Source: a virus. From it: a DNA stretch of 27,440 bases. The notes under the pieces were generated by a model that was not told the origin of the DNA, did not search any database, and was given only the letters and a program-made list of their open reading frames with translations. The position numbers and the translations under genes were made by a program. Location: the IMG/VR virus record IMGVR_UViG_3300022839_000083, positions 1 to 27,440 of that record; one strand, written 5' to 3'. This document shows, in pieces, positions 5,528 through 27,440 of the stretch. Every line of letters begins with the position of its first letter. Within the stretch, counting starts at the first letter, position 1.

Positions 5528-6379
5528 ATGGCCTTTCAAATCAATTTTAATGCAAGCAACTTTGTTAGCAGTATTGTATCTGATGCAACTAGCGCTGTTA
5601 AAGGCGCAATCGGCAGTACTATTAATCAAAAGCTAGGCAGTCTAGGGCCGCTAGGAAAACTTGCTGCAAATTTTATTAATCAAACAGGCGGTTTTGGATC
5701 TTCAATTAATAATAGAACAATATCAAGAGCAATAATATCGTCTAACAATTCAGTATCTGATGCAAGTGATTGGCGTGTTAGCATTAGTGTGCCAGACATA
5801 CTTAGAAACGAGGGTGATATATTAGCGCCTCTAAGAGAAGCTAGTGGATCGAGTGCATTTAATACCGGAAATAGAATGATATTTCCGTTTAACCCTTCAG
5901 TGTTGTTAAGTCATAGTGCAACCTATTCTTCGGTTCATCCTACACATACAAATTATGCGTATAATGCATATGAAAATAGCCAAGTAGATGCAATTACAAT
6001 TACTGGTGAATTTTATCAAGAAAATGAAAACGATGCAAAGTATTGGGTTGCATGTTTGCACTTTTTAAGAAGCGCAACTAAGATGTTTTATGGCAACAGT
6101 CAGCCGTTAGGCAATCCGCCTGTGGTATGTAGATTAAACGGATATGGTAAACATGTTATGAATAATATTCCTGTTGTAATAACTAACTTTACAACTGATT
6201 TACCAGTTGATGTTGATTATATACAGTGTACAATTAATGGACAAGTAAACTATGTTCCTACACAAAGTTCAATTACAGTTACACTACAACCACAATACGC
6301 AAGACGTTCGCAATCGGGCTTTAGCTTAAATCAATATGCCGCTGGCGGACATATTAATGGTAAAGAAGGATTTGTATAA
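5528..6379 (+). CDS. gp48: gp48-like baseplate tail tube cap
   Basis: A 283-residue protein that I match to the marine-phage form of gp48, the cap joining the central baseplate hub to the tail tube. The hydrophobic, Ser/Gly-rich N-terminus (1-60) resembles that of other tube-initiating proteins. The core has FPFNPSVLLSHSATY (119-133), FLRSATKMFYGN (179-190), NPPVVCRLNGYGKH (196-209) and the DLPVDVDYI turn (224-232), all patterns I recall in cyanophage gp48. T4 gp48 has 364 residues, so this is shorter. It is the first gene of the late operon, with AGGAG 12 bases upstream, and its stop overlaps the gp53 start (TAATG). The tube-fold relative gp54 is the main alternative, since T4 gp48 and gp54 are both built on the tail-tube fold. 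Confidence 0.7.
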   Translation: MAFQINFNASNFVSSIVSDATSAVKGAIGSTINQKLGSLGPLGKLAANFINQTGGFGSSINNRTISRAIISSNNSVSDASDWRVSISVPDILRNEGDILAPLREASGSSAFNTGNRMIFPFNPSVLLSHSATYSSVHPTHTNYAYNAYENSQVDAITITGEFYQENENDAKYWVACLHFLRSATKMFYGNSQPLGNPPVVCRLNGYGKHVMNNIPVVITNFTTDLPVDVDYIQCTINGQVNYVPTQSSITVTLQPQYARRSQSGFSLNQYAAGGHINGKEGFV

Positions 6380-6681
6380 TGACTGCTGATAATAATTTAA
6401 GTCCATACGGAAGAACAGAAATTACCGCAAGTGGATATTTAGATATTTTAAAACCTCGTCCAGTTCCTATAAACAGAGATGATATATTGTTTGAAATAAC
6501 ACCTGAATATACGTATCGCCCTGATTTACTTGCATATATTACTTACGGAAAACAAGAGCTTTGGTGGGTGTTTGCACAACGTAATTTAGACATTCTTAAA
6601 GATCCAGTGTTTGACTTTGTTGCTGGCACTAAGATTTATTTACCTGATCCGTCGGCTTTAAAAAATACCCTAGGAGTATAA
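6379..6681 (+). CDS. gp53: gp53 baseplate wedge subunit
   Basis: A 100-residue protein matching the conserved part of gp53, a wedge component that clamps neighbouring wedges around the hub. Family patterns include YRPDLLAYITYGKQELWWVF (46-65), QRN (67-69), then DPVFDFVAGTKIYLP (75-89), the last resembling a LysM-type turn common in baseplate proteins. T4 gp53 is 196 residues, so this is about half length; the missing part is C-terminal. The ending is clean, with the next ATG two bases after the stop, so this looks like a natural short form and not a truncation. It lies between gp48 and the hub-like protein, a neighbourhood usual in marine T4-like phages. Confidence 0.8.
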   Translation: MTADNNLSPYGRTEITASGYLDILKPRPVPINRDDILFEITPEYTYRPDLLAYITYGKQELWWVFAQRNLDILKDPVFDFVAGTKIYLPDPSALKNTLGV

Positions 6682-11203: not shown

Positions 11204-13684
11204 ATGGCAAACGGAAATTATACAAGAACAACGTCTAATAATAATGCTGATTTTAAAAATGCAGGACCGTATGAAGCTATCATTGTTAATAATTTAGATA
11301 CAAAATATATGGGCGGCCTTGTTGTTGAATTATTAAGATATACTAGCTCTGGTGGCACGCCTGAACGTAGCGGCCAATTATTAAATGTAAGATATTTAAG
11401 TCCGTTTTACGGTGTTACTCCTAATGCTGCACTTACTGCAAACGATGGTTATGAACATACACAAAAGTCATATGGTATGTGGATGGTGCCGCCTGATGTA
11501 GGTACTAAAGTCCTTGTAATATTTGCAGAAGGTAATGCAAACTTTGGTTATTGGATTGGATGTATTCCCGCAGACTATATGAATTTCATGGTTCCTGACG
11601 GGAGAGCCTCAACTGAAAACACAACTGGAATTACTCCTCCTCCACTAAAGGGAAGAAAGCTTCCAACCGGCGAATATAATAAATCAATTGAAAGTGGATC
11701 TAAAGTTGATCCTACTTTATTTGCTAAACCGTATAACAAAGATTTTACAGAATCTTTAGAAATCCAAGGGTTACACAATGACGAAATCCGCGGCACTACT
11801 ACAACTAGTGCTCGCAGAGAAATTCCTAGTATGGTATTTGGTATAAGCACACCGGGTCCTAAAGATCGCAGAGACGGCTCGCCAACTGTAGAAATAGGCA
11901 CAGCAGGAAACAAAGTTGCAGTTCCTTCAAACAGATTAGGCGGTAGTAGTTTTGTAATGGATGACGGTGATGAAAGATTTGTTCGTTCAACTCATGCAGA
12001 AGATGGCCCTCCAATTTATAAAAATAAAGGTGCTAACGAAACCGGCGGCGATAGAACTATTCTACAAAACGAGCTAATGCGTTTTCGAACTAGAACCGGG
12101 CATCAGATATTAATGCACAACAGTGAAGATTTAATTTATATTGGAAATGCCCGCGGCACTACTTGGATTGAAATGTCCAGCGACGGTAAAATTGATATTC
12201 ATGCACAAGATAGCGTTAGTATCATGACTGAAAATGATTTAAACATTACTGCTGAACGTGATATAAACATGGAAGCAGGCAGAAATGTCAATATTAAGGC
12301 TACTGGCAGAGCAAGGGGTGCAGCTAGCGGTAGAGTACAAATTGAATCTAAGCAAGATTTTAATTTGTATGTCGGCGCAAACAGTAAAATTACTGTAGGA
12401 AACAATCAACATATTGCCGTAAAACAGTCGCAATATATTGATACAGCTAAATCATTACACGTTAAATCAGGACAAGACAATCGTCTCACTGCCGGGGGAT
12501 CTACACACATTAACAGTGCAAAAGAACATAGAGAAACTGCAACATATGTGCATATGAATGGACCAAATGCAGCTCAAGCTAACCCTGCACGACAAGTTGA
12601 ACAGTTGAGTACAATTACATTACCTCGTGTTAGACCAGGTGGCTCAATAAGTGGATACGAAAGTATATTAGCAAGGGCGCCGCAACACGAACCGTGGCCG
12701 CATCATGAAAACTTAGATCCGTTATCGTTTAAGAAAATAGAAACAGATAGAGACGCGCCCGGAGCGCTGCCTAGTTCGGATCGGGTGCTTACTCCCGATA
12801 CGTTTGATAAAAATTTACAAGGTAGAACGTCTAGTGCATTTGTATCAGGAAGCGGCGGTAACATCAGCACAGGGTATATATCAAGAGGTCCCGGCAACGG
12901 ACAAACACCTGTACCGCCTGGTGATTATAACAGTGACTTTAACTTTGATCCAGAATTAGGATCACTAAGTGCAAGATACGAATCAAGAGGAAATCCTGCA
13001 ACTATTGGATGGGATAGCACCGGCGGATTTAGTTACGGAACATACCAGCTTGCAGCAAACCGAGGTGTAATGAATGAATTCCATGCTTGGCTGACTAAGG
13101 CATACCCTAGCTTAGAATCGCAATTGGCAGCAGCCGGCGGCGCGTCAGCAGCTAGAGCAGGTACCGAAGCATACAAAGCTGCATGGGCACAAGTAATGTC
13201 AACAGCAGCAGGTAAAGAAGCACAGCACCAGTATGCAGTAATTGCATATTATGTACCTGCTGCAAAACTAATTAAAAATAAATCAGAGATTGATGTAAAT
13301 CAAAGATCACTAACATTACAAAATACTGTATGGTCTGCTGCTATACAACACGGTCCAGGCGGCGCACGCAACGTCTATGAAAGAGCACTTGCTAGTTTAA
13401 GTTATCCGCCAAGCCCTCCTACTACAACTGAGCCCACTGATTCGGCATTAATTAGAGCAGTTTATGCAGAACGCCGCGCAGAAAATGGCGCACGATATTT
13501 TAAAAGTAGTACACAAGGTGTTAGGGATAGTGTTGTTAACAGATTCCATAACGAAGAAGCAGATGCTCTTAGAAGTTTAGAACAAGAGATTGCTAAAGCA
13601 CAAGCTAATCCGCCGACACAAGATCCGACAGATAACAGTGCAGCTACTGCAACAGTAGCACTACATCGATCATCTGCACAATAA
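11204..13684 (+). CDS. gp5: gp5-like baseplate hub spike with C-terminal hydrolase domain
   Basis: An 826-residue puncturing-spike protein. Residues about 20-125 form the gp5/VgrG OB-fold (PPDVGTKVLVIFAEGN near 97-112, YWIGCIP just after). A linker leads to a triple-beta-helix needle at about 310-453, with short alternating repeats such as KIDIHAQDSVSIMTENDLNI and ERDINMEAGRNVNIKA, as in T4 gp5 and VgrG. The C-terminus (about 587-740) has LSARYESRG (588-596) with E593 as likely catalytic acid, then GGFSYGTYQLA (607-617), a pattern of peptidoglycan-cleaving domains on VgrG-type spikes. T4 gp5 (575 residues) instead carries a T4-lysozyme domain between OB-fold and helix; here that site holds only a linker. 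Its role would be to pierce the outer membrane and cut murein at injection. It has an ACAGGA ribosome site, with a weak AATAAAT late-like box at 11169-11175. Confidence 0.8.
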   Translation: MANGNYTRTTSNNNADFKNAGPYEAIIVNNLDTKYMGGLVVELLRYTSSGGTPERSGQLLNVRYLSPFYGVTPNAALTANDGYEHTQKSYGMWMVPPDVGTKVLVIFAEGNANFGYWIGCIPADYMNFMVPDGRASTENTTGITPPPLKGRKLPTGEYNKSIESGSKVDPTLFAKPYNKDFTESLEIQGLHNDEIRGTTTTSARREIPSMVFGISTPGPKDRRDGSPTVEIGTAGNKVAVPSNRLGGSSFVMDDGDERFVRSTHAEDGPPIYKNKGANETGGDRTILQNELMRFRTRTGHQILMHNSEDLIYIGNARGTTWIEMSSDGKIDIHAQDSVSIMTENDLNITAERDINMEAGRNVNIKATGRARGAASGRVQIESKQDFNLYVGANSKITVGNNQHIAVKQSQYIDTAKSLHVKSGQDNRLTAGGSTHINSAKEHRETATYVHMNGPNAAQANPARQVEQLSTITLPRVRPGGSISGYESILARAPQHEPWPHHENLDPLSFKKIETDRDAPGALPSSDRVLTPDTFDKNLQGRTSSAFVSGSGGNISTGYISRGPGNGQTPVPPGDYNSDFNFDPELGSLSARYESRGNPATIGWDSTGGFSYGTYQLAANRGVMNEFHAWLTKAYPSLESQLAAAGGASAARAGTEAYKAAWAQVMSTAAGKEAQHQYAVIAYYVPAAKLIKNKSEIDVNQRSLTLQNTVWSAAIQHGPGGARNVYERALASLSYPPSPPTTTEPTDSALIRAVYAERRAENGARYFKSSTQGVRDSVVNRFHNEEADALRSLEQEIAKAQANPPTQDPTDNSAATATVALHRSSAQ

Positions 13685-13697
13685 GGGTAAATATAGT

Positions 13698-14132
13698 ATG
13701 AGTCAATTAGAAAAAAATCTGTATAAAAGAGTAACTGTAAGTCAGCCTGTACAAAAATCTACAGTAGGTAGAAAATATAGAGGATTTTCTACAGTTGCAG
13801 ATGCTAAAAGTTTTAGTTTGTATGACTTTGAACTTATTAAACAAGATTTAATAAATCATTTTCATATACGTCAAACTGAAAAATTAAGTGATCCTACATT
13901 TGGCACAATAATATGGGATATATTATACGAGCCATTTACCATTGAAGTACAAGAAGCAATAATTGAAGATGTTACTCGTATTATTAACTACGATCCTAGA
14001 ATAAGAGCTGAAGACATTGTAATAGATACTTACGAACAAGGTATACAGATTGATTGTACAATAACTGTGCTGCCGTTTGGAGTAACTGACCAATTACGCT
14101 TTAAATTTGATAAAGAAAACGGACTACTTTAA
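13698..14132 (+). CDS. gp25: gp25 baseplate wedge subunit
   Basis: A 144-residue protein of the GPW/gp25 family, the sheath-initiating wedge protein at the inner baseplate. Typical patterns: SLYDFELIKQDLINHF (40-55), KLSDPTFGTIIWDILYEPF (62-80), where EPF stands in for the EPR core motif of T4 gp25, then ITRIINYDPRI-like sequence (92-102). The C-terminal strand region (110-140) shows ITVLPFGVTDQLRF-like alternation. The length is close to T4 gp25 (132). It starts 13 bases after the gp5 stop, with AAGG just after that stop as ribosome site. An AT-rich TAAATATA lies in the gap and could be a minor late box. gp6 follows, its partner in the wedge core. Confidence 0.9.
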   Translation: MSQLEKNLYKRVTVSQPVQKSTVGRKYRGFSTVADAKSFSLYDFELIKQDLINHFHIRQTEKLSDPTFGTIIWDILYEPFTIEVQEAIIEDVTRIINYDPRIRAEDIVIDTYEQGIQIDCTITVLPFGVTDQLRFKFDKENGLL

Positions 14133-14197: not shown

Positions 14198-17100
14198 ATG
14201 TCTTCAAGCGATAGACAGTCAAGGTTATTAGTAGCTGAAGACTGGAAAAGAATTTACCAATCATTTAGAAACGCTGATTTCCAGAGTTATGACTTTGATA
14301 ATCTTCGTCGTACAATGATTAATTATCTGCGTCAAAATTACCCAGAGGATTTTAACGATTATATTGAGTCAAGTGAATATCTTGCACTAATTGATATGAT
14401 TGCTTTCCTTGGGCAAAATCTGTCATTCCGTATTGACTTGAATGCTAGAGAAAACTTTCTTGAAACAGCAGAACGCAGAGAAAGCGTATTACGACTTGCA
14501 CGTATGCTGTCTTACAATCCAAGACGTAATCAAGCAGCGAACGGTTTACTAAAGTTTGATACAATTAAGACAACTGAAAATCTTTTAGATAGTAATGGAT
14601 TAAATTTAGCAGGCATTACTATTAAGTGGAATGATCAAACTAATTCAAATTACTTTGAACAGTTTGTCAAGATTATGAATTCAGCATTGCCGTTGTCTAA
14701 CTCAATTGGTAATCCGTTAAAGTCTGCACTAATTGCAGATGTACAAACACAGAAATATCGCTTAAATGCCACAAATACTGGGCAAGCAATTTATCCTTTT
14801 ACTAAGCGTATTGAAGGTATAAGTACACGTTTTGAAATTGTAAGTACTGACTTATCAGCGGAAGATATTATAGAAGAAGCTCCGCTACCAGGCAATAGTC
14901 CTGCATTCTTATTCCGTGATGACGGCCAAGGCGCTGGAAGTGCTAACACTGGATTCTTTATGCATTTCCGTCAAGGCAAACTTGAAACAGGAAATTTTGC
15001 AGTAACTAACCCTACACCCAACCAAGCAGTTCAAATTGATGCTGAAAATATTAATGACTCTGATGTTTGGCTATTTGCACTAAATAGCGCAGGGTTTGAG
15101 AGTAACCAATGGACAAAAATTGATTCAACTGAAGGTAATAATGTTATCTATAATAGTTTGTTCAATAAAACTAGAGATGTATTTGCAGTAACTACTCGTA
15201 TTGGTGACAGAATTAATTTAAACTTTAGTGACGGAGTATTTGGAAATTTACCAGCTGGCAATTTTAGATCATACTATAGAACTAGTAATAATATACGCAG
15301 TGTAATAACGCCCGGTGCAATTAATACTGTAAGCATTGAGATTCCTTACCAAGCAAGAAACGGATCAGTGCAAACACTTACTATTGGTCTTAAATTAAAT
15401 TATACAGTTAGTAACGGTACTGCTACTGAAACTAATGCTGAAATTAAACAAAATGCACCTACTACATACTATACACAAAATCGTTTAATTACAGGTGAAG
15501 ATTATAACATTGGTCCGCTTGCTATTAGTCAAGATATTATTAAAACTAAAAGTACAAACAGAATATCAAGCGGGATAAGCAGATTTTTTGATTTAAAAGA
15601 TGCCAGCGGAAAGTATTCAAATACTAGTTTATTTGCAGACGACGGCGTAATTTACAAAGAAGAGTTTGTTGAAAAGCAGTCGTTTACGTTTGCTACGCAA
15701 ACAGATATTGAAGGTGTTATATACAACACTATTGAAGAAATTTTAGGAAGTGTAAGCACACAAAATTTCTATCTTGCAAAATATCCAAAAATTATTGTTA
15801 GTGACCTTAATGCAACTTGGTTGCAGTCAAGCACAAGTACAAACCAGTCATTAGGCCTGCTTCAAGATATTGATAGCAATGCATATTCAGTAGGTAGTTT
15901 TACTGCTAATAGTTTGCGGTTGGTAGAAGCAGGAACAATGTTAAAATTTGTTGCTCCTGTCGGCAAGCATTTTATGCCAGACGGCACCCTAATGGATGAC
16001 AATGATGTAGATCATTTAGGAAAAACAAATTATAAGTGGTCTAAAATAGTGTCTGTTTCTGGTGCAGGAACAACTATAGATGAAGACGGAATTGCGCCTA
16101 TCGCGCTAAATGATATTATTCCAACTGGTGCAATATTACAGCAATTAATTTCTAATTATTCTAAAGTATTAATTAACGATGTAAAAGTAGAATTAATTGA
16201 CCAAACATTTGAATACAGAGACTTTGCACTACGATACGATCAGTATGATAGACAATGGAAGATTGTGTTAGCAGAAGACATTAATACACTTGGCGCTTTT
16301 GCAACTGGTAAAGCAGGCGATATTAGCGGTGAGAATCTTGATGCAAGTTGGATGTTATACTTTAAAACAGATGGTGAAAAATACACAATTACCTATCGTA
16401 ATTTAAGATACATAATGGAAAGTGCAGATGAGATTAGATTCTTCTTTGATGCTGCTGATAAAATTTATGATCCTGCAACCGGTCAAATAGTTAGAGATAA
16501 GATTAATATCTTAAATATTAATCGTAAACCCGGTGCGCTAACACCGCTTACAACAGACTTTAACTGGACGATCACTGATGCATATAGAGATGTAGAAGGA
16601 TATCTAGACAGCCGTAAAATTCAAGTTCAGTTTATTGATCTTGACGATGACGGAGTAGTCGATGATCCAGATATATTTGAACAAATTGTTGGTGAAGAAA
16701 ATACTGCAATTGCAACCGCAGACAAATTAATATTCCAAAAGAAATATACAACAACCGACGGTGTAGAAGACTTTAAATATTTTGCAAATATAACTGCTGA
16801 AATAATTATAGTACAAAACGAAGCAGCAATATCTCCCTACAGCGCACGATTAGAAGGGCAGATATTTTATCTAATTGATGAAGGTATTTTTAGAAAGCTT
16901 AATAAAGTACTAAACAACACTGTAATTAATACAGACTATAAAGCATATTTTGGCCGTTCAGGGTTAAAATTTCATTATATCCATGTTGCTGATAGTGGAT
17001 ATAGAATTGACCCAAGTGCAAGTAATATTATTGATACATATGTGTTATCAAAGTCTTATGATATACAAGTAAAGCAATATATTGCTGGAACAATTTTAAC

Positions 17101-17716
17101 AAAGCCTAAGCCGCCCAGTAACGATGAATTATTTAGAAGTTATGGAACCGCGATTAATAAAATAAAAAGTATAAGCGACGAAATAATTTATCATCCTGCA
17201 AAATATAAAGTATTGTTTGGAGATAAAGCAACTCCGGATTTGCAAGTTAAATTTAAAATTGTTAAAAATGCTAATGTAGTTATCAATGACAATGAACTTA
17301 AATCAGGGATTGTTGACGCAATTAATCAGTTTTTTGATATTGAAAATTGGGACTTTGGAGAGACATTTTACTTCCAAGAACTTAGTGCCTATATTATAAA
17401 CCAGCTGTCGCCTAAATTGGTAAGTATATTGATAGTTCCGAGGCAGACAACACAATCATTTGGTAGCTTATTTGAAATTAAATGTGAACCAGATGAAATA
17501 TTTGCAAGTGCTGCTAAAGTAAGTGATATTGAAACAATTGATCAAATAACAGCTACTAATTTACAAGCTAGTGGTACAGTAATTAATAGTGTATCAACTA
17601 GTACAACCGCAGGAATAACAAGCAGTGTAACGTCAATATCAACTAGTACAACCGCAGGAATATCAAGCAGTGCAACAACAACAACTAACACAACAAGTGG
17701 AGGCTATAGTTACTAA
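14198..17716 (+). CDS. gp6: gp6 baseplate wedge subunit, enlarged form
   Basis: A 1172-residue wedge protein. The N-terminus is diagnostic for marine gp6: a TMINYLRQNYPEDFNDYIES stretch (about 39-58), then YLALIDMIAFLGQNLSFRID (62-81) and the segment from LNARENFLETAERRESVLRL to LSYNPRRNQAANG (up to about 117). In T4, gp6 forms a dimer per wedge and the ring around the hub with gp25 and gp53. T4 gp6 has 660 residues, so about 500 are extra, probably mid and late beta-rich domains (about 400-900). The chain ends in a Ser/Thr-rich tail of two 15-residue repeats (see 17593-17682) and GGYSY. The ribosome site AAGGA lies four to eight bases before the ATG inside a hairpin. The stop overlaps the start of the next, giant gene (TAATG). 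Confidence 0.88.
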   Translation: MSSSDRQSRLLVAEDWKRIYQSFRNADFQSYDFDNLRRTMINYLRQNYPEDFNDYIESSEYLALIDMIAFLGQNLSFRIDLNARENFLETAERRESVLRLARMLSYNPRRNQAANGLLKFDTIKTTENLLDSNGLNLAGITIKWNDQTNSNYFEQFVKIMNSALPLSNSIGNPLKSALIADVQTQKYRLNATNTGQAIYPFTKRIEGISTRFEIVSTDLSAEDIIEEAPLPGNSPAFLFRDDGQGAGSANTGFFMHFRQGKLETGNFAVTNPTPNQAVQIDAENINDSDVWLFALNSAGFESNQWTKIDSTEGNNVIYNSLFNKTRDVFAVTTRIGDRINLNFSDGVFGNLPAGNFRSYYRTSNNIRSVITPGAINTVSIEIPYQARNGSVQTLTIGLKLNYTVSNGTATETNAEIKQNAPTTYYTQNRLITGEDYNIGPLAISQDIIKTKSTNRISSGISRFFDLKDASGKYSNTSLFADDGVIYKEEFVEKQSFTFATQTDIEGVIYNTIEEILGSVSTQNFYLAKYPKIIVSDLNATWLQSSTSTNQSLGLLQDIDSNAYSVGSFTANSLRLVEAGTMLKFVAPVGKHFMPDGTLMDDNDVDHLGKTNYKWSKIVSVSGAGTTIDEDGIAPIALNDIIPTGAILQQLISNYSKVLINDVKVELIDQTFEYRDFALRYDQYDRQWKIVLAEDINTLGAFATGKAGDISGENLDASWMLYFKTDGEKYTITYRNLRYIMESADEIRFFFDAADKIYDPATGQIVRDKINILNINRKPGALTPLTTDFNWTITDAYRDVEGYLDSRKIQVQFIDLDDDGVVDDPDIFEQIVGEENTAIATADKLIFQKKYTTTDGVEDFKYFANITAEIIIVQNEAAISPYSARLEGQIFYLIDEGIFRKLNKVLNNTVINTDYKAYFGRSGLKFHYIHVADSGYRIDPSASNIIDTYVLSKSYDIQVKQYIAGTILTKPKPPSNDELFRSYGTAINKIKSISDEIIYHPAKYKVLFGDKATPDLQVKFKIVKNANVVINDNELKSGIVDAINQFFDIENWDFGETFYFQELSAYIINQLSPKLVSILIVPRQTTQSFGSLFEIKCEPDEIFASAAKVSDIETIDQITATNLQASGTVINSVSTSTTAGITSSVTSISTSTTAGISSSATTTTNTTSGGYSY
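17593..17682 (+). repeat. Tandem 45-base repeat at gp6 C-terminus
   Basis: Two adjacent 45-base copies (17593-17637 and 17638-17682) match at 40 of 45 positions, the first 25 exactly. They keep frame and encode STSTTAGITSSVT-type then STSTTAGISSSAT-type 15-residue units. The high identity suggests a recent duplication by slippage or a length-variable tail. Confidence 0.9.
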
Positions 17717-20700
17717 TGGCTAAGAATGATCAAAACGAGAGCGCTCTGCCTGTCCCAGGTCAGAATAATAAAATTACTGCAAGTGATTTTTTACCTAAGT
17801 TCTTTAGAACACAAGCAAATAAAAAGTTTTTACAAGGTACACTTGATCAACTTATACAACCTGGTGTTGCTGAAAAAATCAATGGATACTACGGCAGAAC
17901 AACAGCTAAGGCATATAAGACATCGGACAATTATAACGATGATGTAACTAATGATAGAACTAATTATCAACTAGAACCTGCTACTGTTATTAAAGACAAT
18001 TATAACAATGTAACTTTTTATAAAGACTACAATGATTATATAGGACAGCTGGGCGTCTTTGGTGCAAACACTGATAATCATAGCCGTCTAAACAGTCAGG
18101 AAACCTATGCATGGAATCCTAACATTGACTGGGATAAATTTGTAAACTTCCGTGAATATTACTGGTTACCTAACGGTCCTCTAAGTGTTACAGTCAGTGG
18201 TCAAAGTAGAGAAGTTGTTAGTACTTACGCTGTTACAGTAGAAGATCAGGGCGACAGTGTTGCTTATGTATTTAACGACGGTCTAACACGTAATCCTAAA
18301 TTAAAATTATACCGAGGCCAGACATATCGCTTTGATATTGATACTCCTGGCCACCCGATGGCTATTGCTATCAGTAGATCATTTACTCCCGGTACTGCTA
18401 TTTTGACAGCCGGAACAGAAGGATTACGCGCTGTAGGATTATTTGACGCAGTACTCTACGGCAATGAATATGACCAAGGTGAATATATTATTCTTCCAAG
18501 CGGCGGTAGCGTAACATTTGCTGCTGATGATAACGTTTCGACATTATATCCAGACGGCATCCGTAAGCTAGGCGAAGAAGGCGAAGAAGTTGCAATTGCA
18601 TATATTGAAAAGGGCACAATACAATTTACTATTCCTTTTAATGCACCTGGCAAACTTTATTACGTTAGCAAAAACGCAGTAGATACTAGCGGTCTTATTA
18701 AAATTTATGACATCGAAGAAAACGCCTTCTTAGATGTAGCTGAAGATATTTTAGGTAAGAAAACATATAAAAGTGCAAACGGTATAGAATTGTCAAACGG
18801 AATGAAAATTAGATTCCAGGGCGACGTGACACCGGCTGCATATGAAACTCATGATTGGTATGTTGAAGGCGTTGGCACTAAAATAACTTTAATTAAAGAT
18901 CAAGATTTAATTATTCCAGCAGCATACAGCGATAATAAACTTATTCCGTTTGATAGCGATGAGTTTGATACACTACCATTTGCTGATGCAAGTGCTTATG
19001 CAACTGAAAAAGATTATATTATAGTTAACAGAGCATCGCCTGATAGAAATGCCTGGAGTCGTTATAATAGATGGCATCACAAAGATGTAATTTTAAAAAG
19101 TTTCCGTTTCAATAACCTTCCAAGAGATGTTGACGAATCGGCTCGTGCTAAACGCCCTATTATAGAATTTGAAGCAGGGTTAAAATTAAATAATTTTGGT
19201 GCATATGCTAAAACTGATGTTGACTTAATTGACACATATACTACTGATGTGTTTAGTACAATTGAAGGCCAACTAGGTTATAATATTGACGGAATTAATC
19301 TTGCTGACAACATGCGCATTTTGTTTGCAGCCGACACTGATATACTAGTAAGCGGTAAAATTTATCAAGTTAAATTTGTTACAATTAATAATTCTAGGCA
19401 AATTAGTTTAGTAGAAACTATTGATACTACTCCTATTGATCTTGAAACTGTATTAGTTACACAAGGTGTAAAAAATGCAGGAAAAAGTTATCACTACCAA
19501 GGCGGCAAATGGGTAGCTGCGCAAGAAAAAACAACACGTAATCAAGCACCAATGTTTGAAGTATTTGATGTAACTGGAAATAGTTTTAGTGATGAAGCAT
19601 ATTACGGTTCATCTACTTTCAAAGGATCTAAATTATTTTCATATGCAGTAGGCGACGGAACACGCTTTGATACTGAATTAGGATTTGTGTTAAGCTATAA
19701 ATCAATTGAAAATTCAGGCGATATTGTCTTTGATTTTAATTTATTAAACGATACTTTTACATATCAAACCGAGACAGACTTATTTTCACAAGCTATTAAC
19801 AGCGGTTATTTAAAGAAGTTTAAATCACTTACTTCTTTTAATTATGTAAACGGATTTAGTAGCACTCCTACTATCAGTAAGCAGTATGTTATAAGAGAAT
19901 ACGCAGCAACTGATATTCAAGTTAATAACTTTAAAATTGATGTTTATAAAAATTCAAGCAGTGTAACTGATATAAAAGTAGTAGTATTTGTAAACAACAA
20001 ATTAAAGTTAGTTAATACTGATTACACAATTGATAAAACTAAACCAAATGCAGTTATTGTTTTTAATAGCAATTTAACAATTAATGATGTTATTAAAATT
20101 AAAACAAATAGTAAAACTATTAAAAATTCTAATGGATATTATGAGTTCCCCTACAATTTAGAACGTAATCCGCTAAATGACGATGTTAATCAATTCACAT
20201 TAGGTGAAGTAATTGATCATGTTGATAGTATGCTGGAAGATATACCTGGCTATATCGGAACATACCTTGGATCAAGCAACCTACGTGATTTAGGTGACTT
20301 AGCTCGTTATGGTAAAAGATTTGTTAAACACAGTGGACCAATAAATTTACCGTTATATCACATAACAAATAAAAGCTATAATATTGTAAAAGCATTAAAG
20401 TATTCTAAAAAAGAGTATTCAAGATTTAAGAAAACATTCTTAGACACTGCTGCTAGTTTAGGATATGACGGCCCAGTTAAAACGCACGTTGACCTTATTT
20501 TAAAAACTGTTAATAGTGATAAAGTAACGTCACAGCCGTTTTACTTTTCGGATATGCTTGCATCGGGATCGTCTAACAAAATTGTATATAAAGTATTAGA
20601 TTCAAGAGTACAAGATTATCCACTCACTACTACCTATAATCTTTTAACTCTAAGTTCAACAAGCATAACGGTTTATTTAAATGGAATCCAGCTAACACAC

Positions 20701-23700
20701 ATTAAAGATTATAACTTTAATGTAGCAGGTTATATATCAATCAACGCCGGCCAAATAGAAGATGATAAAATTGAAATACACGAGTATGCAACCACAGACG
20801 GCAGCTTCATTGCACCTACTCCTACAAAATTAGGACTATTTCCAAAATATTATCCTGAATTAACAATTGACGATACTGTGCTGGCCGACGAGCCAGTATC
20901 TACTGGTCCGTTTAAAGTTTACGGCGAAGACAGTGCTACTGGTACTAGAGGTTGGTTCTATCCTGTTTATACAACTAAGGGTGTAGCAGGCACAGGTGCA
21001 ACTTCAAAGTCTTACACCTTTGTAGGAATGAATAAAATATTTTACATTCCTACAACAGGCGCGACACTTGCTGGCAATGATGACATTGAAATTGATGAAT
21101 ACCCAATTGGCGTTGCATTTATTAGAGGACACGACGGTAGTTACATTAAAGCATATAAAGACTTTAGAGACGAATTACTGTTAGAATTAGAAAAGCGTAT
21201 CTTTAACAATATTAAGGCACAGTATTCAACTGATAGATTAGATGTCAACGCATTCATGGGCGGCGAATTTAGAACTAACGAATTTACAAAAATTGAAATT
21301 GATAATTCACTCCTTGGAGATTTTCAAAAGTGGTTACAAGAAAATTTAAACAATCAAACATATACTAACAATACTTTTTACAACAGAAACAACAACTGGA
21401 CATTTAATTATTCAGACACTACTTCACCAGACGGCAATGAAAACGCAGGCTTCTGGAGAGGAATGTATGTAAGAGCATTTGATACAGATCGCCCGCACAG
21501 TCACCCTTGGGAAATGTTAGGCTTAACAACTAAGCCAAGCTGGTGGAATACAGTATACGGTCCTGCGCCTTATACAGGTGATAACTTAGTACTTTGGAAA
21601 GACCTAGAAATTGGCCGCATTGCAGATCCTGCAAATGCTAGAATTGACTTAAATTATGCTCGTCCTGGTCTAACTAGATTTATTCCAGTTGATAGTAACG
21701 GTAAATTATTATCGCCGTTGAACAGTAAGTATACTAGAAATTTCCAGATACAAAGTGCTACTAGAAACTTTAAATTTGGCGATTACGCTCCAGTTGAAAA
21801 TGCATGGCGCAGAAGTTCAGACTATCCATTTGCTATACTAACTGCAATGTTACTAAACAAGCCTGCTAAAACAATGGGATTAGGGTTTGACGTTTCAAGA
21901 GTACTAAAGAACTTGGCTAACCAATGGGTAGACATAGGTACAAATAAACCAGTAGTTATTAAAGATTTAACATTACCAAATACGTATCAATCAGATGTTA
22001 GAACTAATACAGCAGGTTTAGTAAATTACATTTATAACCTTGTAGCAAGTGATATTCTAACAGTATACGAAGGATACAAAACTGATTTAGCTACAATTAA
22101 TAATCAGCTAGGTGTTAAGATTGCTGGATTTACAAGTAAAGAAAAATTTAATATAATTCTTGACAGTAGATCACCTGCGCAATCTCTTACACAAGATGGA
22201 ATTTTTGTTCCTCAAGAAAATTATCAAGTGTTTTTAAACACAAGTAGTCCTAGTGAACTAGCAGTGTTTAGTGGTATTATTGCAGAACGCACCGAACTAG
22301 GATATGTAATAAGAGGGTATAATCTAGAAAAGCCGTATTTTGAATATTATGCAGCTAGGGAAGGGTCAACATCTTCAACAGTTACTGTCGGCGGTATTTC
22401 CGAAAAAGTATCTCCTTGGGAAACGAACACGTCTTATATCAGCGGCGAAGTAATACAACATAATAATGCATATTATAGAGTAATTAATTCCTTTACTACT
22501 ACACTATCATTTGATACTAATGATATAGTTAAGCTTCCTGCACTTCCAGTAAGCGGAGGCAGAACCGCACAGTTTAAGAAAGATTTTGACACTGTTGAAC
22601 TTAAAACTTTACAGTACGGCAGTCGGCTTAACACTGCACAAGAAGTTGTTGACTTTATTTTAGGTTATAGTATAAGACAAAAAGAAATTGGATTCAGTTT
22701 TGAAAATGTTATTGACAGAACTAATTCAGTTGAAAACTGGAACCAAAGTGCAAAAGAATTTCTATTCTGGACAACTCAAGGTTGGGCAAATAACTCGTTA
22801 ATTGCACTAAGTCCAGCAGCAAACTTATTAGAATTCCAACGAGATTATTGTGTAGTTGATAACATTAAAGACGAGTTCTACGGCTATAGTATTTTTAAAG
22901 CCGACGGACAGTTTTTATCTTCGGAATTTAACAGTCTATTAAGAGATCAAAATAGTTTTGGTATTCAAACAGTTGGTACCGACGAGGGATTGTATCACGT
23001 ATCGCTTCCATTAGTACAAAAAGAGCATGTTGTGTTATTAGACAACACAACAGATTTTAATGATACAATTTACAATCCGAGTACTGGATACAGACAAGAA
23101 CGAATTCGTGTTAACGGTTATAGATCAGATAATTGGAACGGCGGCCTAAACATTCCGGGGTTTGTCTATGATGATGCAAAATATACTGACTGGGCACAAT
23201 GGAAAGATTATGTTATTGGTGATATTGTAAAATACAAACAATATTATTATGTTGCAACTAGTAATGTTACTGGATCACAGAACTTTGATTCTGCATTATG
23301 GTATCGACTAAACGAAAAACCAGTATCACAACTAATTACTAACTTTGATTATAGAGTTACACAGTTTACTGATTTTTACGACTTAGATTCAGATAGTTTT
23401 GATACTGAACAGCAAAAAATGGCACAGCATTTAATAGGTTATCAAAAGCGCCAGTACCTTGCTAACATTATTAATGATGATGTAAGTCAGTTTAAATTCT
23501 ACAGAGGTGCAATTGCAGACAAGGGCACAATGAATGTGTTTACTAAGTTGTTTAATGCACTTGGTAATACTACTGATAATTTAGAGTTCTACGAAGAGTG
23601 GGCAATACAAGTTGGTCGTTATGGAGCAACTGAGGATGTTCAACAGGTTGAATACAATTTAAAACAAGATAAAATGCAAGAGTCTCCTCAAGCAGTTGAA

Positions 23701-26700
23701 CTTGTCATGTCATTGCCTATAACTAATTTTGATAAGGTTTATAGAATTTTACCAAACGAAGTATTTGATAAGCCTGCAGGATATAATCACGCACCGTTTC
23801 CAACTAAAACAATAACTAGAGAATATATTAAAACTGCTGGTTATACAAATGCGGACGATGTTGATTTTGTTGTAGGTAATATGATAGATCTGTCAGCAGT
23901 AGACACTAACCAAATTAAATTAGGTGATACTATTTGGATAACTGATACAGATAATAAATCATGGACAGTAATGCAATTAGTACGAGCAAACGTAAATGCA
24001 CTTGGCGTAAGTACGCTTATTCAAGGTGTAGCAACCAACGGACTAAACTTAGTTGAAATAACATTAGATAAGTGGGCAGCTGGAACACTAGAAGTAGGCG
24101 ACTATATTGGTATTCGCGGAGCAACAGAATATTCAATTAATGGATTGTACGAAATTGATAATATAAGTCTTAATACTGTTCAAATAAGAGTTCCATTAGT
24201 TAACGACATCTCGGACTTTGAAGAAGAAAAGTTTACAGTATCTAAGTTAAGAACTATAAGAGTTAGCAATGTTACTGAAATTAATGCTGCAACTAATCAA
24301 GACATTTATAGCAAACAACGATTATGGATTGATACCTATAATAGCGAATGGGCAGTATTAGAAAATAACGCAGTTTATTTAAATTCTCAAGCAATTACAA
24401 ATCCGTCGTTGTATGATAGCACAGATCAGGGCTTTAGTAATAGTGTTGCAATAACAAAAAATAACACTAATGTTTTTGTGTCGGCACCTAATGATGCTAA
24501 CGGCAAAGTATCAGTATACAGAAGAACTAGGGAAGTTTCAAATTTATTATTAGATCAAGAAATTATTATAGAAAATGACGACTTGTTTACTCGTGATAAT
24601 TCTGCTTTTGGAAAAAGTATTGCAGTATCGCCAGACGGCGAGTATCTTATTGTAGGTATTCCGCAAGCTAGCAATGTTAAAACTCGACTATCATATAAAA
24701 CAGATGCTGATACAGGATTAAGTACATTTGATTTCCAACCAGATGCAGCGTATATTAAAAATGATATTGTACGTTATAGAGAAAGTCTATGGAAAGCTAA
24801 CAGACAAATACTACCTCAAATTGCTAACCAACCATTTAGTACATTTGATACTTATGTAAACATTGCCAGTGCAGCAGATGCTGATAGTACAACATTAACC
24901 TTATTAGTTACAGGCGATCTAGGATTACCTAATAACATAGTTAGTCACCTATTAGTGCGTGCTCCTAAAGACATGTATATTGGTACAGCCGCTGGCGATA
25001 CGGTAAACTTGTTCTGGAATCGTCGTAGTTTTGCATATCCAACATTAGACAACTATCTTCCTTTTGATAATGCAATACCGCAAATTACAGCAGATTTTTT
25101 AAGCCAAGCTCACACTATTATTGAAAAGATTGACCATGTATTTTTTGTTGAGACATTTGTAACATTGCCGATAATAGGCAATGTTGTAACAACAGATACC
25201 GGTAGTGCAACAGTAGCATATGTTAGCACCCGCAACGATAGTGCAGTAATATATATTAAAAACACTAATGGTGTTTTTGATATTACTGGAGAATTGTTTA
25301 TAGAAGAACTGGACTTTGTAGGGAGTTACACTGAAGAGTCAACATTTAGCACAACAACTGCGGTTGACGGCTTCTGGATGATTGCTACGCCTACGTATTC
25401 AAATAATAGTACATATTATGATATTGGACGTGGCTTAGTTTATGCAGATGTTAGACTACAGGGATCGGTAAGAGACCTTAATCGTTACTACAATATTCAA
25501 AATACTGTAGCTGTTATTGGTGCTTATGTAACTAACAGAAATCAAGCAAGCTACCTTGAACAGTTATCATATCGCGGCGACCCTGCAAATCAAGACGCTG
25601 CTGACGGAGTTGAGAGAGATTTACCTAGCAACAAATGGGTAGCCCGAGCAGGAACATCGTTTACTGATAATTTAACTATTGGGTCTACTGCTGAATTTAG
25701 ATTGTATGATCTTAATAATAGAATTATTGACGTTGCTAGTGCAGGATTTACATACAATATTTTAAACAAAGAACAAACAGTTGTTGACTTATGGGATGGA
25801 TATATTGACTTTACCCTTAGTGAATTTGACTTCCAAGGATTTGCATTCGAACCTCAAGTGGGAGACATTCTTGAAGACGTTCAAATTCCTAGAGACGGCC
25901 AAGGCGGACTAGCACTAACTTCAATTACAACCAGTAGTGCTGAAGTAATGTTTATGCAACGTAACTTTACTAGTGTTAGAGTCTATGTAAAGATTGTTGC
26001 AAATTTAAATGGCACTACAGGAACTTGGACACAAGAAACAAATATTGGACGTTTCCAAATTCGTAGAAGAGCAAACTTGAATTTAAGAGCAGGAGATGTT
26101 GCTCGTACAATTGGTACAATTTCAGATGTAAACAACCAAATAGTATTAGGAACTTCTTTAATTGGTAAACTAGTGGTATTTGAAAATGTAAGTAATTTTG
26201 ACATTGTTTCTAATCCAACTATTGTTGACGAAGAATATTGGTTCTTTGATGAAACAATTGAATCAGGAATTCAGAGATTGCCAAACCCTCCGTACAGTTT
26301 GAATAAAGATTATATACAAATCTACAATATTCCTGCAGAAAAAACAGGATCTAGTCCTTCAATGGAAAACGAAGGCGCAATTGCTATATACAGAAAATTA
26401 CGCGACGGTAGTTATAGATTCCAAACTGTATTTGCATCAGAGTACAGAGCAGCAAATAGAAATTTTGGTTCTAAAGTTGCAATAGTGCAAACTGGAAATT
26501 ATTATACATTATTAGTTGCTAGTGATAGTATTGCTAGTTCCGGTGAAACTGATAGTACAGGCAGAAGAGTGCAACCTGGCGCAATTGAAATATTCCGTCA
26601 TGGCACTAAACTATCTGATGCATTTAAAGGTGAATATCAACTAATAGCATATTTAATAGGCGATATTGTAGTATATAAAGATGATTACTATATTGCACTT

Positions 26701-27440
26701 AAAAATACAACTGCTGCCCAAAATGTTATAGTTGATACAACTTATTGGAATAAAATTAGTTGGAAGCACGGCAAAGATTCAAATTTCCGCGGCACATTTG
26801 ACAACACTTATTCATATAAGAAAGATAATATAGTTGTACAAAATAATGCACTATGGAAAGCACTAACAAATATTTCAGTAGGTGCAGTAATTCCTAGCGT
26901 CTCAAATAACTCTTGGATAGAAATTACTACAGATGTAGATTACTTAGGTTACTTGCCAAATCTAACTGCAAATGCGTTCTACGATGAAACAGTATTTGAT
27001 CCTATTGAAAACATATTAGAATTTAGCAAGAGTTTTGATATTAGTGATGATGCACAAGTATTAGTTGTAACAAGTACACAAACTGATGCTACTAGTACAT
27101 CAAATACAAAACTTGCAATTTATCGTGCAATTGAAGACAAATTTGTATTAGATCAAATAATTACTGCTCCTAATAATGTCGATGCGTGGGGCGATAAAGT
27201 TAGTATGAATCCTGCAGGAACACAAATTGCTGTAAGTTCAATGCTAAATGATTCTAATAAAGTTAATCAAGGCGTTGTATATGTTTATACACAAACATCT
27301 GGAACATTTACTTTAACACAGACACTAATGCCGCCAAATAATGAAGAAAGCGAAGGCTTTGGCTTTGGGTTATCTTACGGTACTGATAACTTAGTAGTGT
27401 CAAGCTTAAACGGTGATCAGACAATACCAACTACGTTTGA
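17716..27440 (+). CDS. Giant structural protein at gene 7 position, 3' end missing
   Basis: One frame stays open from the ATG at 17716 (TAATG overlap with gp6) to the window edge, at least 3241 residues. T4 has gene 7, a 1032-residue baseplate wedge protein, in this place, so I infer a wedge or baseplate-periphery role; I cannot show homology to gp7. Visible parts: start KITASDFLPKFFRTQANKKF (19-38), NIDWDKFVNFREYYWLPNG (about 136-154), a cupredoxin-like domain (182-332), a long beta-rich middle with HPWEMLG and WWNTVYGPAPYTGDNLVLW (near 1267-1295), five short modules resembling CBM5/12 carbohydrate-binding domains (near 1568, 1826, 2336, 2973, 3024), and FG-GAP-like propeller blades from about 2238 to the end. 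The last two may bind cell-surface glycans. No signal peptide or membrane segment is seen. Base use matches its neighbours. Confidence 0.8.
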   Translation, partial: MAKNDQNESALPVPGQNNKITASDFLPKFFRTQANKKFLQGTLDQLIQPGVAEKINGYYGRTTAKAYKTSDNYNDDVTNDRTNYQLEPATVIKDNYNNVTFYKDYNDYIGQLGVFGANTDNHSRLNSQETYAWNPNIDWDKFVNFREYYWLPNGPLSVTVSGQSREVVSTYAVTVEDQGDSVAYVFNDGLTRNPKLKLYRGQTYRFDIDTPGHPMAIAISRSFTPGTAILTAGTEGLRAVGLFDAVLYGNEYDQGEYIILPSGGSVTFAADDNVSTLYPDGIRKLGEEGEEVAIAYIEKGTIQFTIPFNAPGKLYYVSKNAVDTSGLIKIYDIEENAFLDVAEDILGKKTYKSANGIELSNGMKIRFQGDVTPAAYETHDWYVEGVGTKITLIKDQDLIIPAAYSDNKLIPFDSDEFDTLPFADASAYATEKDYIIVNRASPDRNAWSRYNRWHHKDVILKSFRFNNLPRDVDESARAKRPIIEFEAGLKLNNFGAYAKTDVDLIDTYTTDVFSTIEGQLGYNIDGINLADNMRILFAADTDILVSGKIYQVKFVTINNSRQISLVETIDTTPIDLETVLVTQGVKNAGKSYHYQGGKWVAAQEKTTRNQAPMFEVFDVTGNSFSDEAYYGSSTFKGSKLFSYAVGDGTRFDTELGFVLSYKSIENSGDIVFDFNLLNDTFTYQTETDLFSQAINSGYLKKFKSLTSFNYVNGFSSTPTISKQYVIREYAATDIQVNNFKIDVYKNSSSVTDIKVVVFVNNKLKLVNTDYTIDKTKPNAVIVFNSNLTINDVIKIKTNSKTIKNSNGYYEFPYNLERNPLNDDVNQFTLGEVIDHVDSMLEDIPGYIGTYLGSSNLRDLGDLARYGKRFVKHSGPINLPLYHITNKSYNIVKALKYSKKEYSRFKKTFLDTAASLGYDGPVKTHVDLILKTVNSDKVTSQPFYFSDMLASGSSNKIVYKVLDSRVQDYPLTTTYNLLTLSSTSITVYLNGIQLTHIKDYNFNVAGYISINAGQIEDDKIEIHEYATTDGSFIAPTPTKLGLFPKYYPELTIDDTVLADEPVSTGPFKVYGEDSATGTRGWFYPVYTTKGVAGTGATSKSYTFVGMNKIFYIPTTGATLAGNDDIEIDEYPIGVAFIRGHDGSYIKAYKDFRDELLLELEKRIFNNIKAQYSTDRLDVNAFMGGEFRTNEFTKIEIDNSLLGDFQKWLQENLNNQTYTNNTFYNRNNNWTFNYSDTTSPDGNENAGFWRGMYVRAFDTDRPHSHPWEMLGLTTKPSWWNTVYGPAPYTGDNLVLWKDLEIGRIADPANARIDLNYARPGLTRFIPVDSNGKLLSPLNSKYTRNFQIQSATRNFKFGDYAPVENAWRRSSDYPFAILTAMLLNKPAKTMGLGFDVSRVLKNLANQWVDIGTNKPVVIKDLTLPNTYQSDVRTNTAGLVNYIYNLVASDILTVYEGYKTDLATINNQLGVKIAGFTSKEKFNIILDSRSPAQSLTQDGIFVPQENYQVFLNTSSPSELAVFSGIIAERTELGYVIRGYNLEKPYFEYYAAREGSTSSTVTVGGISEKVSPWETNTSYISGEVIQHNNAYYRVINSFTTTLSFDTNDIVKLPALPVSGGRTAQFKKDFDTVELKTLQYGSRLNTAQEVVDFILGYSIRQKEIGFSFENVIDRTNSVENWNQSAKEFLFWTTQGWANNSLIALSPAANLLEFQRDYCVVDNIKDEFYGYSIFKADGQFLSSEFNSLLRDQNSFGIQTVGTDEGLYHVSLPLVQKEHVVLLDNTTDFNDTIYNPSTGYRQERIRVNGYRSDNWNGGLNIPGFVYDDAKYTDWAQWKDYVIGDIVKYKQYYYVATSNVTGSQNFDSALWYRLNEKPVSQLITNFDYRVTQFTDFYDLDSDSFDTEQQKMAQHLIGYQKRQYLANIINDDVSQFKFYRGAIADKGTMNVFTKLFNALGNTTDNLEFYEEWAIQVGRYGATEDVQQVEYNLKQDKMQESPQAVELVMSLPITNFDKVYRILPNEVFDKPAGYNHAPFPTKTITREYIKTAGYTNADDVDFVVGNMIDLSAVDTNQIKLGDTIWITDTDNKSWTVMQLVRANVNALGVSTLIQGVATNGLNLVEITLDKWAAGTLEVGDYIGIRGATEYSINGLYEIDNISLNTVQIRVPLVNDISDFEEEKFTVSKLRTIRVSNVTEINAATNQDIYSKQRLWIDTYNSEWAVLENNAVYLNSQAITNPSLYDSTDQGFSNSVAITKNNTNVFVSAPNDANGKVSVYRRTREVSNLLLDQEIIIENDDLFTRDNSAFGKSIAVSPDGEYLIVGIPQASNVKTRLSYKTDADTGLSTFDFQPDAAYIKNDIVRYRESLWKANRQILPQIANQPFSTFDTYVNIASAADADSTTLTLLVTGDLGLPNNIVSHLLVRAPKDMYIGTAAGDTVNLFWNRRSFAYPTLDNYLPFDNAIPQITADFLSQAHTIIEKIDHVFFVETFVTLPIIGNVVTTDTGSATVAYVSTRNDSAVIYIKNTNGVFDITGELFIEELDFVGSYTEESTFSTTTAVDGFWMIATPTYSNNSTYYDIGRGLVYADVRLQGSVRDLNRYYNIQNTVAVIGAYVTNRNQASYLEQLSYRGDPANQDAADGVERDLPSNKWVARAGTSFTDNLTIGSTAEFRLYDLNNRIIDVASAGFTYNILNKEQTVVDLWDGYIDFTLSEFDFQGFAFEPQVGDILEDVQIPRDGQGGLALTSITTSSAEVMFMQRNFTSVRVYVKIVANLNGTTGTWTQETNIGRFQIRRRANLNLRAGDVARTIGTISDVNNQIVLGTSLIGKLVVFENVSNFDIVSNPTIVDEEYWFFDETIESGIQRLPNPPYSLNKDYIQIYNIPAEKTGSSPSMENEGAIAIYRKLRDGSYRFQTVFASEYRAANRNFGSKVAIVQTGNYYTLLVASDSIASSGETDSTGRRVQPGAIEIFRHGTKLSDAFKGEYQLIAYLIGDIVVYKDDYYIALKNTTAAQNVIVDTTYWNKISWKHGKDSNFRGTFDNTYSYKKDNIVVQNNALWKALTNISVGAVIPSVSNNSWIEITTDVDYLGYLPNLTANAFYDETVFDPIENILEFSKSFDISDDAQVLVVTSTQTDATSTSNTKLAIYRAIEDKFVLDQIITAPNNVDAWGDKVSMNPAGTQIAVSSMLNDSNKVNQGVVYVYTQTSGTFTLTQTLMPPNNEESEGFGFGLSYGTDNLVVSSLNGDQTIPTTF
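18259..18711 (+). other. Cupredoxin-like domain lacking copper ligands
   Basis: Residues 182-332 of the giant protein follow the pattern of a cupredoxin-like domain frequent in marine phage structural proteins: LKLYRGQTYRFDID (196-209), GHPM (212-215), then TIQFTIPFNAPGKLYY (301-316). The usual C--H--M ligand loop after LYY reads VSKNAVDTSG here, so Cys, His and Met are replaced by S318, A321 and T324 at matching spacing. Only H213 remains. An extra segment of about 60 residues lies between the halves. Confidence 0.6.
24427..27440 (+). repeat. FG-GAP-like propeller blades with large insertions
   Basis: Blade signatures (GF/FG-x-S-hydrophobic-x-x-x-x-x-G-x-x-hydrophobic-V-x-x-P, then G-x-V-x-V-Y) occur at residues about 2239-2290, 2298-2324, 2917-2963, 3102-3147, 3157-3205 and from 3215. 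The second blade's first half (FGKSIAVSPDGEYLIVGIPQ) is separated from a matching second half (GAIAIYRKLRDGSYRFQTVF, 2887-2906) by about 560 residues. A seventh blade or closing strand would lie beyond the window. Confidence 0.6.
26632..26940 (+). repeat. Tandem pair of CBM5/12-like modules
   Basis: Residues 2973-3015 and 3024-3073 each show the order aromatic, Y-x-x-x-D-hydrophobic-V-x-x-x-x-x-x-hydrophobic-hydrophobic-x-A-hydrophobic, about 20 residues, then W-x-x-I: AYLIGDIVVYKDDYYIALKN with YWNKI, and YSYKKDNIVVQNNALWKALT with SWIEI. Single copies lie at 22417-22554, 23191-23322 and 24721-24864. Confidence 0.55.

Follow-up and report, generated by a model that had tools for sequence, protein, structure and literature searches.

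The baseplate wedge protein gp7 of phage T4 is 1032 residues long according to the T4 record, the same length as was assumed in an earlier, sequence-only reading of the DNA described here. A review of the T4 tail, in the sections available, counts gp7 among the proteins that are extra to those of P2 and Mu (PMC3004832). A paper on the type VI secretion system (T6SS), in its excerpted text, lists P2 gpI as a gp7 counterpart (PMC6300606), and the P2 gene order W-J-I is the counterpart of the order gp25-gp6-giant that is found in our locus. There is a precedent for receptor-binding proteins being attached through a gp7 counterpart: in Vibrio phage XM1, flexible segments of the counterpart gp17 hold the tail spikes, as stated in the accessible part of that paper (PMC10457771), and the same excerpt on T6SS describes loops of TssG that hold TssK (PMC6300606).

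Giant proteins in the gene-7 slot have been on record before, since cyanophages already carry them there: 5195 residues in P-SSM2, 4156 in S-SM2, 4307 in P-TIM68 and 3048 in S-PM2. The slot is named gp7 in P-SSM2 and S-SM2, baseplate wedge subunit in P-TIM68, and hypothetical in S-PM2; in S-SKS1 the match is not covered by any single annotated gene. The P-SSM2 gene order is gp25-gp6-gp7, and cyanophage gp7 aligns with T4 gp7 in the core region at 97% in hhalign. The available text of one report describes T4 gp7 as absent from pelagi- and cyanomyophages and apparently substituted by VrlC (PMC7029224); for the cyanophages, the profile comparison and the records of P-SSM2, S-SM2 and P-TIM68 disagree with this. 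P-SSM2_113, identified with VrlC on the basis of the name given to the S-SM2 gene at the corresponding position, reached a best domain score of −1.8 bits against four family HMMs of the giant, and shows no sequence similarity by this measure. Loci L091, L099, L100 and L101 are cyanophage giants bearing the gp7 core region. The C-terminal part of T4 gp7 may have a compact relative in Desulfovibrio phage 7757 (L097:6001-6816; tblastn E 1e-3), where the longest ORF found is 586 residues long.

The window, by which we mean the whole stretch of DNA that was analyzed, is a fragment record of 27,440 bases. The baseplate genes with their assignments, and the giant with its parts, are on its plus strand. 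Its baseplate genes comprise a small wedge subunit (6379..6681; phrog_7145, E 1.4e-21), assigned to the gp53 slot because the Vibrio phage gene in a like place is named gp53; a gp5-like hub/spike protein (11204..13684; phrog_13211, E 2e-48); the sheath initiator gp25 (13698..14132; phrog_261, and PF04965 at 28.6 bits with a cut-off of 27.2); and the wedge protein gp6, the presumed partner of the giant (14198..17716; phrog_10646, E 9e-297). The gp5-like protein has a C-terminal T6SS VgrG3-like domain (PF21277, E 4.7e-27, residues 585–785), and no phage lysozyme family is among the Pfam matches listed for it. A 441-residue ORF in the baseplate operon (9841-11166) is without a PHROG match at E 0.01 or an NCBIfam match at E 0.1. 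Elsewhere in the window, two ORFs at 297-1716 adjoin an SbcC/SbcD-like pair; the first has phrog_447 (labelled NAD synthetase) as its top match, followed by homing-endonuclease families, and the second has a homing-endonuclease family as its top match.

Directly after gp6 lies a single ATG-started ORF (17716..27438) of 3241 residues, which is free of stops and runs off the end of the window. Its ATG takes its A from the gp6 stop codon (TAATGG), giving a one-base overlap. The remaining five frames over 17716-27440 contain between 161 and 484 stops each, and the probability of 3241 stop-free codons at the local composition is about 10^-113, which excludes a frame arising by chance. The uninterrupted frame from the gp6 stop to the window end, as described in the sequence-only reading, is therefore confirmed. 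The full gene, which that reading had called for as a check, was obtained from a near-identical IMG/VR contig (L005:10001-25378), where it encodes 5125 residues, with 3238 of the 3241 residues in the window protein identical. The window accordingly holds the first 3241 of some 5125 residues of a giant wedge-slot protein (17716..27440), which phrog_10938, the family of the RaK2-type jumbo giant, matches in four stretches at E 4.6e-233.

This giant is a member of a known but little-studied family, and such giants have already been recorded in cyanophages and in jumbo phages. A tblastn search with its first 2995 residues matched 57 phage records, every one at less than 60% identity, including RaK2, 121Q, PBECO4, CBB, GAP32, Munch, PA5oct, Atu_ph07, Phosso, SCTP-2, and a Vibrio phage. 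The homologues are 4555 residues long in Phosso, 3857 in PA5oct, 3807 in SCTP-2, 3771 in the Vibrio phage, 3326 in RaK2 and 3323 in 121Q. A diverged member of 3138 residues follows gp6 in Stenotrophomonas phage CM1, an ‘UNVERIFIED’ record outside the 57 (core HMM E 1.3e-51). In the matched phage records the giant is mostly labelled ‘virion structural protein’, ‘structural protein’ or ‘hypothetical protein’. The fold of the core gave 26 matches at E ≤0.001 in BFVD, many of them without a name and led by proteins from uncultured Caudovirales and Atu_ph07. A literature search found no paper on the giant as such, which is no proof of absence: the main text of the RaK2 paper contains neither ‘gp070’ nor ‘ORF070’ (PMC3622015), and no mention of the giant was found in the available parts of the papers on Atu_ph07 (PMC6102473) and A-1(L) (PMC10966104) or of a review of jumbo phages (PMC13282480).

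The survey of IMG/VR gave 234 loci with the conserved core. These hold repeated contigs (for example, L104 = L196), and counts are therefore given for the 183 distinct loci, in which 111 homologues are complete, with lengths of 2242–6226 residues and a median of 4654. Three scans were limited to their 80 best relatives, out of 336, at least 581 and at least 597 respectively, and for this reason we claim no frequency in nature. Scans using the single PA5oct, SCTP-2 or Vibrio protein found no relatives, and scans using the alignments A1 and A2 did find them. Model A3 was built from 116 of 213 coverage-filtered relatives after removal of those more than 75% identical, A6 from 110 of these 116 with six dropped by hand, and A4 from 40 hand-picked sequences. 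The cyanophage gp7 profile contains 60 sequences, namely four named ones together with those retained by a coverage filter from 80 loci.

The assignment to the gene 7 slot is borne out both by the window and by its relatives. The order gp25-gp6-giant recurs in Phosso, RaK2, PA5oct, 121Q and CBB, whose homologues are 3.3–4.6 thousand residues long. A gp6 gene on the same strand lies no more than 600 nt upstream of the giant in 165 of the 167 distinct IMG/VR homologues that have at least 2.5 kb of upstream sequence, and gp25 lies upstream in all 139 that have at least 5.5 kb. SCTP-2 is an exception, in that its giant does not follow gp6 and its gp6 homologue is some 92 kb away. The ORF preceding the giant in SCTP-2 (L087) is 9291 bases long and has no match to the family HMMs. 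The giant of RaK2, 121Q and CBB is directly followed by a ClpA-like gene in the opposite orientation (loci L003, L088, L090 and L256, including a Vibrio phage), and the Vibrio phage has a Clp ATPase gene a few genes beyond the giant. Homologues of the protein are present in virions of relatives, where their absence would have counted against the sequence-only reading: CBB_236, whose identity as the CBB homologue was checked, is represented by 21 unique peptides (7.72% coverage) in the part of the CBB virion data available (PMC5259590), and the record of PA5oct gp355 carries an ESI-MS/MS note.

We propose that the giant is a gp7-like wedge scaffold with grafted modules, which would work like gp7, and give this a probability of roughly 0.55. 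The argument for kinship with gp7 is based on the slot, on the detection of no other gp7 in relatives, and on one short KG helix motif. The complete protein, from a marine giant phage, is probably a baseplate anchor with additional modules of a binding type. On this proposal it would do the job of T4 gp7 in the wedge of a jumbo myophage: the helix-KG(T)-helix around residue 1936 would pack with two gp6 chains into the wedge core, and the conserved blocks would form the wedge body. By analogy with T4 numbers in the accessible parts of two papers (PMC3004832, PMC6300606), each wedge would contain a single giant, and each virion six. Between the blocks and beyond them would lie slots that have taken up beta-rich modules (of CBM5/12 type, FG-GAP and, in one relative, an esterase), through which the wedge itself could hold fibres or make contact with the cell surface, and might take part in triggering contraction.

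The alternative that survives best is that the giant is a peripheral protein of the fibre network or upper baseplate layer, lying beside gp6 in gene order only, and that the genuine gp7 is a small, diverged protein that goes unrecognised at another place in the genome. We regard this as rather unlikely. The near-invariant adjacency to gp6 argues against it, and the distance of about 92 kb in SCTP-2 argues for it. The helix-KGT-helix at residue 1936, followed by EEWA, is by eye the best conserved short stretch in the protein. The segment (residues 1870–1965, 23323..23610, with KGT at 23521-23529) was first proposed to be gp7-like by eye, and subsequently fell on the KG motif of cyanophage gp7 in a profile alignment. 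In predicted models, both of the core and of a 141-residue piece, the KGT turn is flanked by two helices. The profile of this segment scores 30.5 against the N-terminus of cyanophage gp7, which none of 150 column shuffles reaches, column shuffles being a control that also destroys local make-up; with a deeper cyanophage profile the score is 29.0 (0/100 shuffles), and so does not rise with depth. The hhalign probabilities are only 5–25%, and fall as the stretch is lengthened. When the KGT HMM is run on the N-termini of cyanophage gp7, its best match covers the KG motif in all 59 sequences that have both the motif and a match (60 given), with a median of 4.1 bits compared to −2.7 for reversed and −3.3 for shuffled sequences; the cyanophage sequences are kin, and this therefore represents one consistent result rather than 59. 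That the motif match to cyanophage gp7 beats shuffles is a second point against a purely peripheral protein.

The corresponding comparison with T4 gp7 is much weaker: 24 of 150 shuffles score as high as the KGT profile, and with T4-type gp7 the best match of the HMM falls on the motif in three of five sequences (seven given), all at negative bit scores. The failure of whole-family gp7 models on the giant favors the peripheral placement, the window protein having no match at E 1 to either phrog_964 (T4 gp7) or phrog_2885 (cyanophage giant gp7). So does the lack of a fold match for the KGT piece, whose 141-residue model (pLDDT 74.4, pTM 0.45) gave 13 chance-level PDB matches, none with Z ≥2, an absence that excludes nothing. 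A phmmer search of the PDB with the single sequence returned nothing. Pfam searches of 40 KGT segments found no gp7-type family, including Tail_P2_I (PF09684), which is a weak test because T4 gp7 itself has no PF09684 match. P2 gpI scores −3.4 bits against KGT, no better than shuffles, and hhalign aligns a different stretch of it; a scan with P2 gpI returned copies that were 99–100% identical, and hence of no use for a profile. An N-terminal LPxFxR stretch (residues 24–60) was considered as the first gp7 helix and dropped, 21 of 100 shuffles equalling the score of a profile of 224 N-termini against cyanophage gp7. The comparison by segments with T4 gp7 that the sequence-only reading had suggested gave it no support, with hhalign scores not above shuffles and no fold match in the PDB. 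As judged from sequence comparison, any homology to T4 gp7 would amount to at most a short motif, and we do not file the giant as T4 gp7 since the profile, Pfam, shuffle and fold tests are negative or weak.

No separate gp7 of T4 type, which would have spoken against the giant as the wedge protein, was found in relatives. The phrog_964 model, which detects T4 and P-SSM2, matched nothing in the records of six relatives (Vibrio 2.275.O partial, the other five called complete), and PF23786 (Baseplate_wedge) was absent from eight relatives; PF23786 is weakly present in P-SSM2 and S-SM2 and misses T4 itself, and both models are weak for diverged proteins.

The conserved parts of the giant can be defined from blastp blocks to the isolate homologues. 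An N-terminal block comprises residues 1–175 (17716..18240), and the HMM for it (‘nt’) matches 223 ORFs within the 234 loci. It is followed by an insert, residues 176–342 (18241..18741), which is seen as a gap between blastp blocks and is unaligned in the six isolate homologues compared. The insert is cupredoxin-like by eye only, with the motif pattern found in 58 of 221 ORFs that have a start; it has no Pfam match, and its best sequence match in the PDB has E 0.52. A second conserved block covers residues 343–970 (18742..20625), and the most conserved core covers residues 1082–2010 (20959..23745), with a mean pLDDT of 85.5 in the predicted model. Block 3 is at residues 3290–4060. The core is 755–938 residues long in the 105 complete members having all three blocks, which were themselves chosen by having the core. 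In the same 105 members, the gap after the N-terminal block measures 595–1934 residues (the second conserved stretch included), the gap from the core to block 3 measures 219–1513 and correlates with total length at 0.82, block 3 measures 361–803 (shortest in L104, a split form), and the C-terminal tail measures 9–1492. A steady core in an otherwise very variable chain is what would be expected of a scaffold, and so is a further point against a peripheral fibre-network protein. The tails do not vary without limit: in the majority consensus of 18 hand-picked C-terminal tails there is a shared element, GERIEY...RRGTxGT, near the end; the tail profile at this element aligns with an insert of cyanophage gp7 at 32% in hhalign. 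The giant's growth is mainly between the conserved blocks and at the end of the chain. The earlier suggestion that the wedge protein has grown in this lineage therefore holds as regards growth, which is in slots; it does not hold as regards the lineage, because the whole jumbo family is affected, and gp7 of P-SSM2 has 5195 residues.

A second alternative is that the giant arose by fusion of several peripheral baseplate proteins, such as gp7 with counterparts of gp8 and gp9 or others. Homology to the giant does run over two separate genes in 3 of the 183 distinct metagenomic contigs. In one (L182:7583-19864), products of 2780 and 1301 residues are in one frame, and between them are two stops, a ribosome-site-like GGAG and a new ATG; in another (L179:3721-17368) a protein of 3123 residues is accompanied by a C-terminal part of 1255 residues as a separate ORF; and in the third (L104:2855-18093, the same contig as L196) a protein of 2608 residues is followed by another ORF and then by at least 964 residues, open at the end of the locus. 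Since the splits run over two genes, these forms suggest that the C-terminal part may be a separable unit, with metagenomic error being possible case by case. The split points differ, which makes fission or assembly error as likely as an ancestral pair, and PA5oct has a separate downstream gene noted as gp10-like. We consider an origin by fusion to be improbable.

Within the core there is a fold of the CBM5/12 (chitin-binding type 3) family at residues 1565–1609 (22408..22542). The Pfam score is 28.0 bits for the whole protein (cut-off 26.2), with single pieces at 15.3–18.2, below the cut-off, and the match spans only positions 2–26 of the 44 in the profile. Foldseek relates the same residues to several chitin-binding domains with a probability of 1.00 at E 0.08 or worse. 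VIA matches it to a chito-oligosaccharide deacetylase with Z 6.9 (45 residues, rmsd 1.3), and to a chain from the baseplate with receptor-binding complex of phage Milano with Z 6.7, both values lying below the Z of 8 under which the tool warns of common arrangements. The whole core gave no PDB match at E ≤0.001, the best rows being mostly on the CBM part. A second CBM5/12-like stretch, at residues 1826–1861 (23191..23298), comes from a pattern scan only. The slot between the core and block 3 contains FG-GAP repeats of propeller type, broken by a large insert (24424..27438; PF14312 scores 33.3 bits over the whole protein against a cut-off of 23, and 18.7 and 30.5 bits in the pieces on either side), and weak CBM5/12-like stretches are also found within it. 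In 20 hand-picked insertion stretches, Pfam identifies FG-GAP_2 in 10 and CBM5/12 in 8. One of the 18 hand-picked C-terminal tails ends in a BD-FAE-type hydrolase (E 5.1e-18), and in this relative (L115:6908-17374) the esterase-like alpha/beta hydrolase lies within a single frame of 3488 residues. The idea of a fusion with cell-binding modules is consequently upheld in part, in that a grafted CBM5/12 fold, FG-GAP repeats and, in one relative, a hydrolase are present. The CBM5/12-type domains may be glycan binders or may be plain building blocks, and receptor binding by the modules is a plausible predicted function. The CBM fold occurs also in fibres and in a baseplate receptor complex, which counts in favor of a peripheral protein.

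An assembly chimera or misread frame is already refuted, nothing having been found in its favor, by the occurrence of the giant frame in the 111 distinct complete homologues and in isolates, and by the differences between L005 and L044, which are mostly at third codon positions (1426, compared to 700 at positions 1+2) and comprise 1276 synonymous and 556 amino-acid codon changes.

Taking the giant as a wedge scaffold, we tentatively suggest a wider picture, in which the jumbo wedge protein would be an open carrier of modules: a chain of 2.2–6.2 thousand residues with a mid-chain gp6-docking segment and three conserved blocks, with fixed slots in which modules for host contact, and even an esterase-like enzyme, are exchanged. 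A single covalent chain in each wedge, in place of separate fibre proteins, would then unite the contraction trigger with the layer that contacts the receptor. If the wedge chain does carry surface-contact modules, then a single molecule would couple host contact mechanically to sheath triggering, and the insertion slots of this one gene might reveal part of the host range of jumbo phages. Borders of blocks and slots are available from the family survey, as are cultured homologues (121Q, CBB, RaK2), and a testable role is useful because most records label the giant as a structural or hypothetical protein. The size and modular growth are striking, yet giants in the gene-7 slot have been annotated already.

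Compared to known systems, the window giant follows gp6 as T4 gp7 does; it differs in size from the 1032 residues of the T4 protein, and has only an unproven motif in common with it. Other gp7 counterparts are tiny: P2 gpI, at 176 residues, has a like gene order and no significant sequence match, and XM1 gp17, which in the accessible text holds the tail spikes, has 242 residues (PMC10457771). The cyanophage giant gp7 proteins resemble the window giant in slot, in size and in the KG helix motif, and share with it a repeat-type decoration (matches to HMM c3). They have no whole-length similarity to it, the gp7-like motif is near the N-terminus at around residue 200 rather than near residue 1936, and the giants of P-SSM2 and S-SM2, unlike the window giant, contain a YHYH domain. 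The RaK2-type giants (RaK2 ORF070w, 121Q 582, CBB_236, PA5oct gp355 and Phosso 294) also lie directly after gp6 and have the conserved blocks in common with the window protein, which is longer (5125 compared to 3323–4555 residues) and has in addition the insert at residues 176–342 and a large insertion between the core and block 3.
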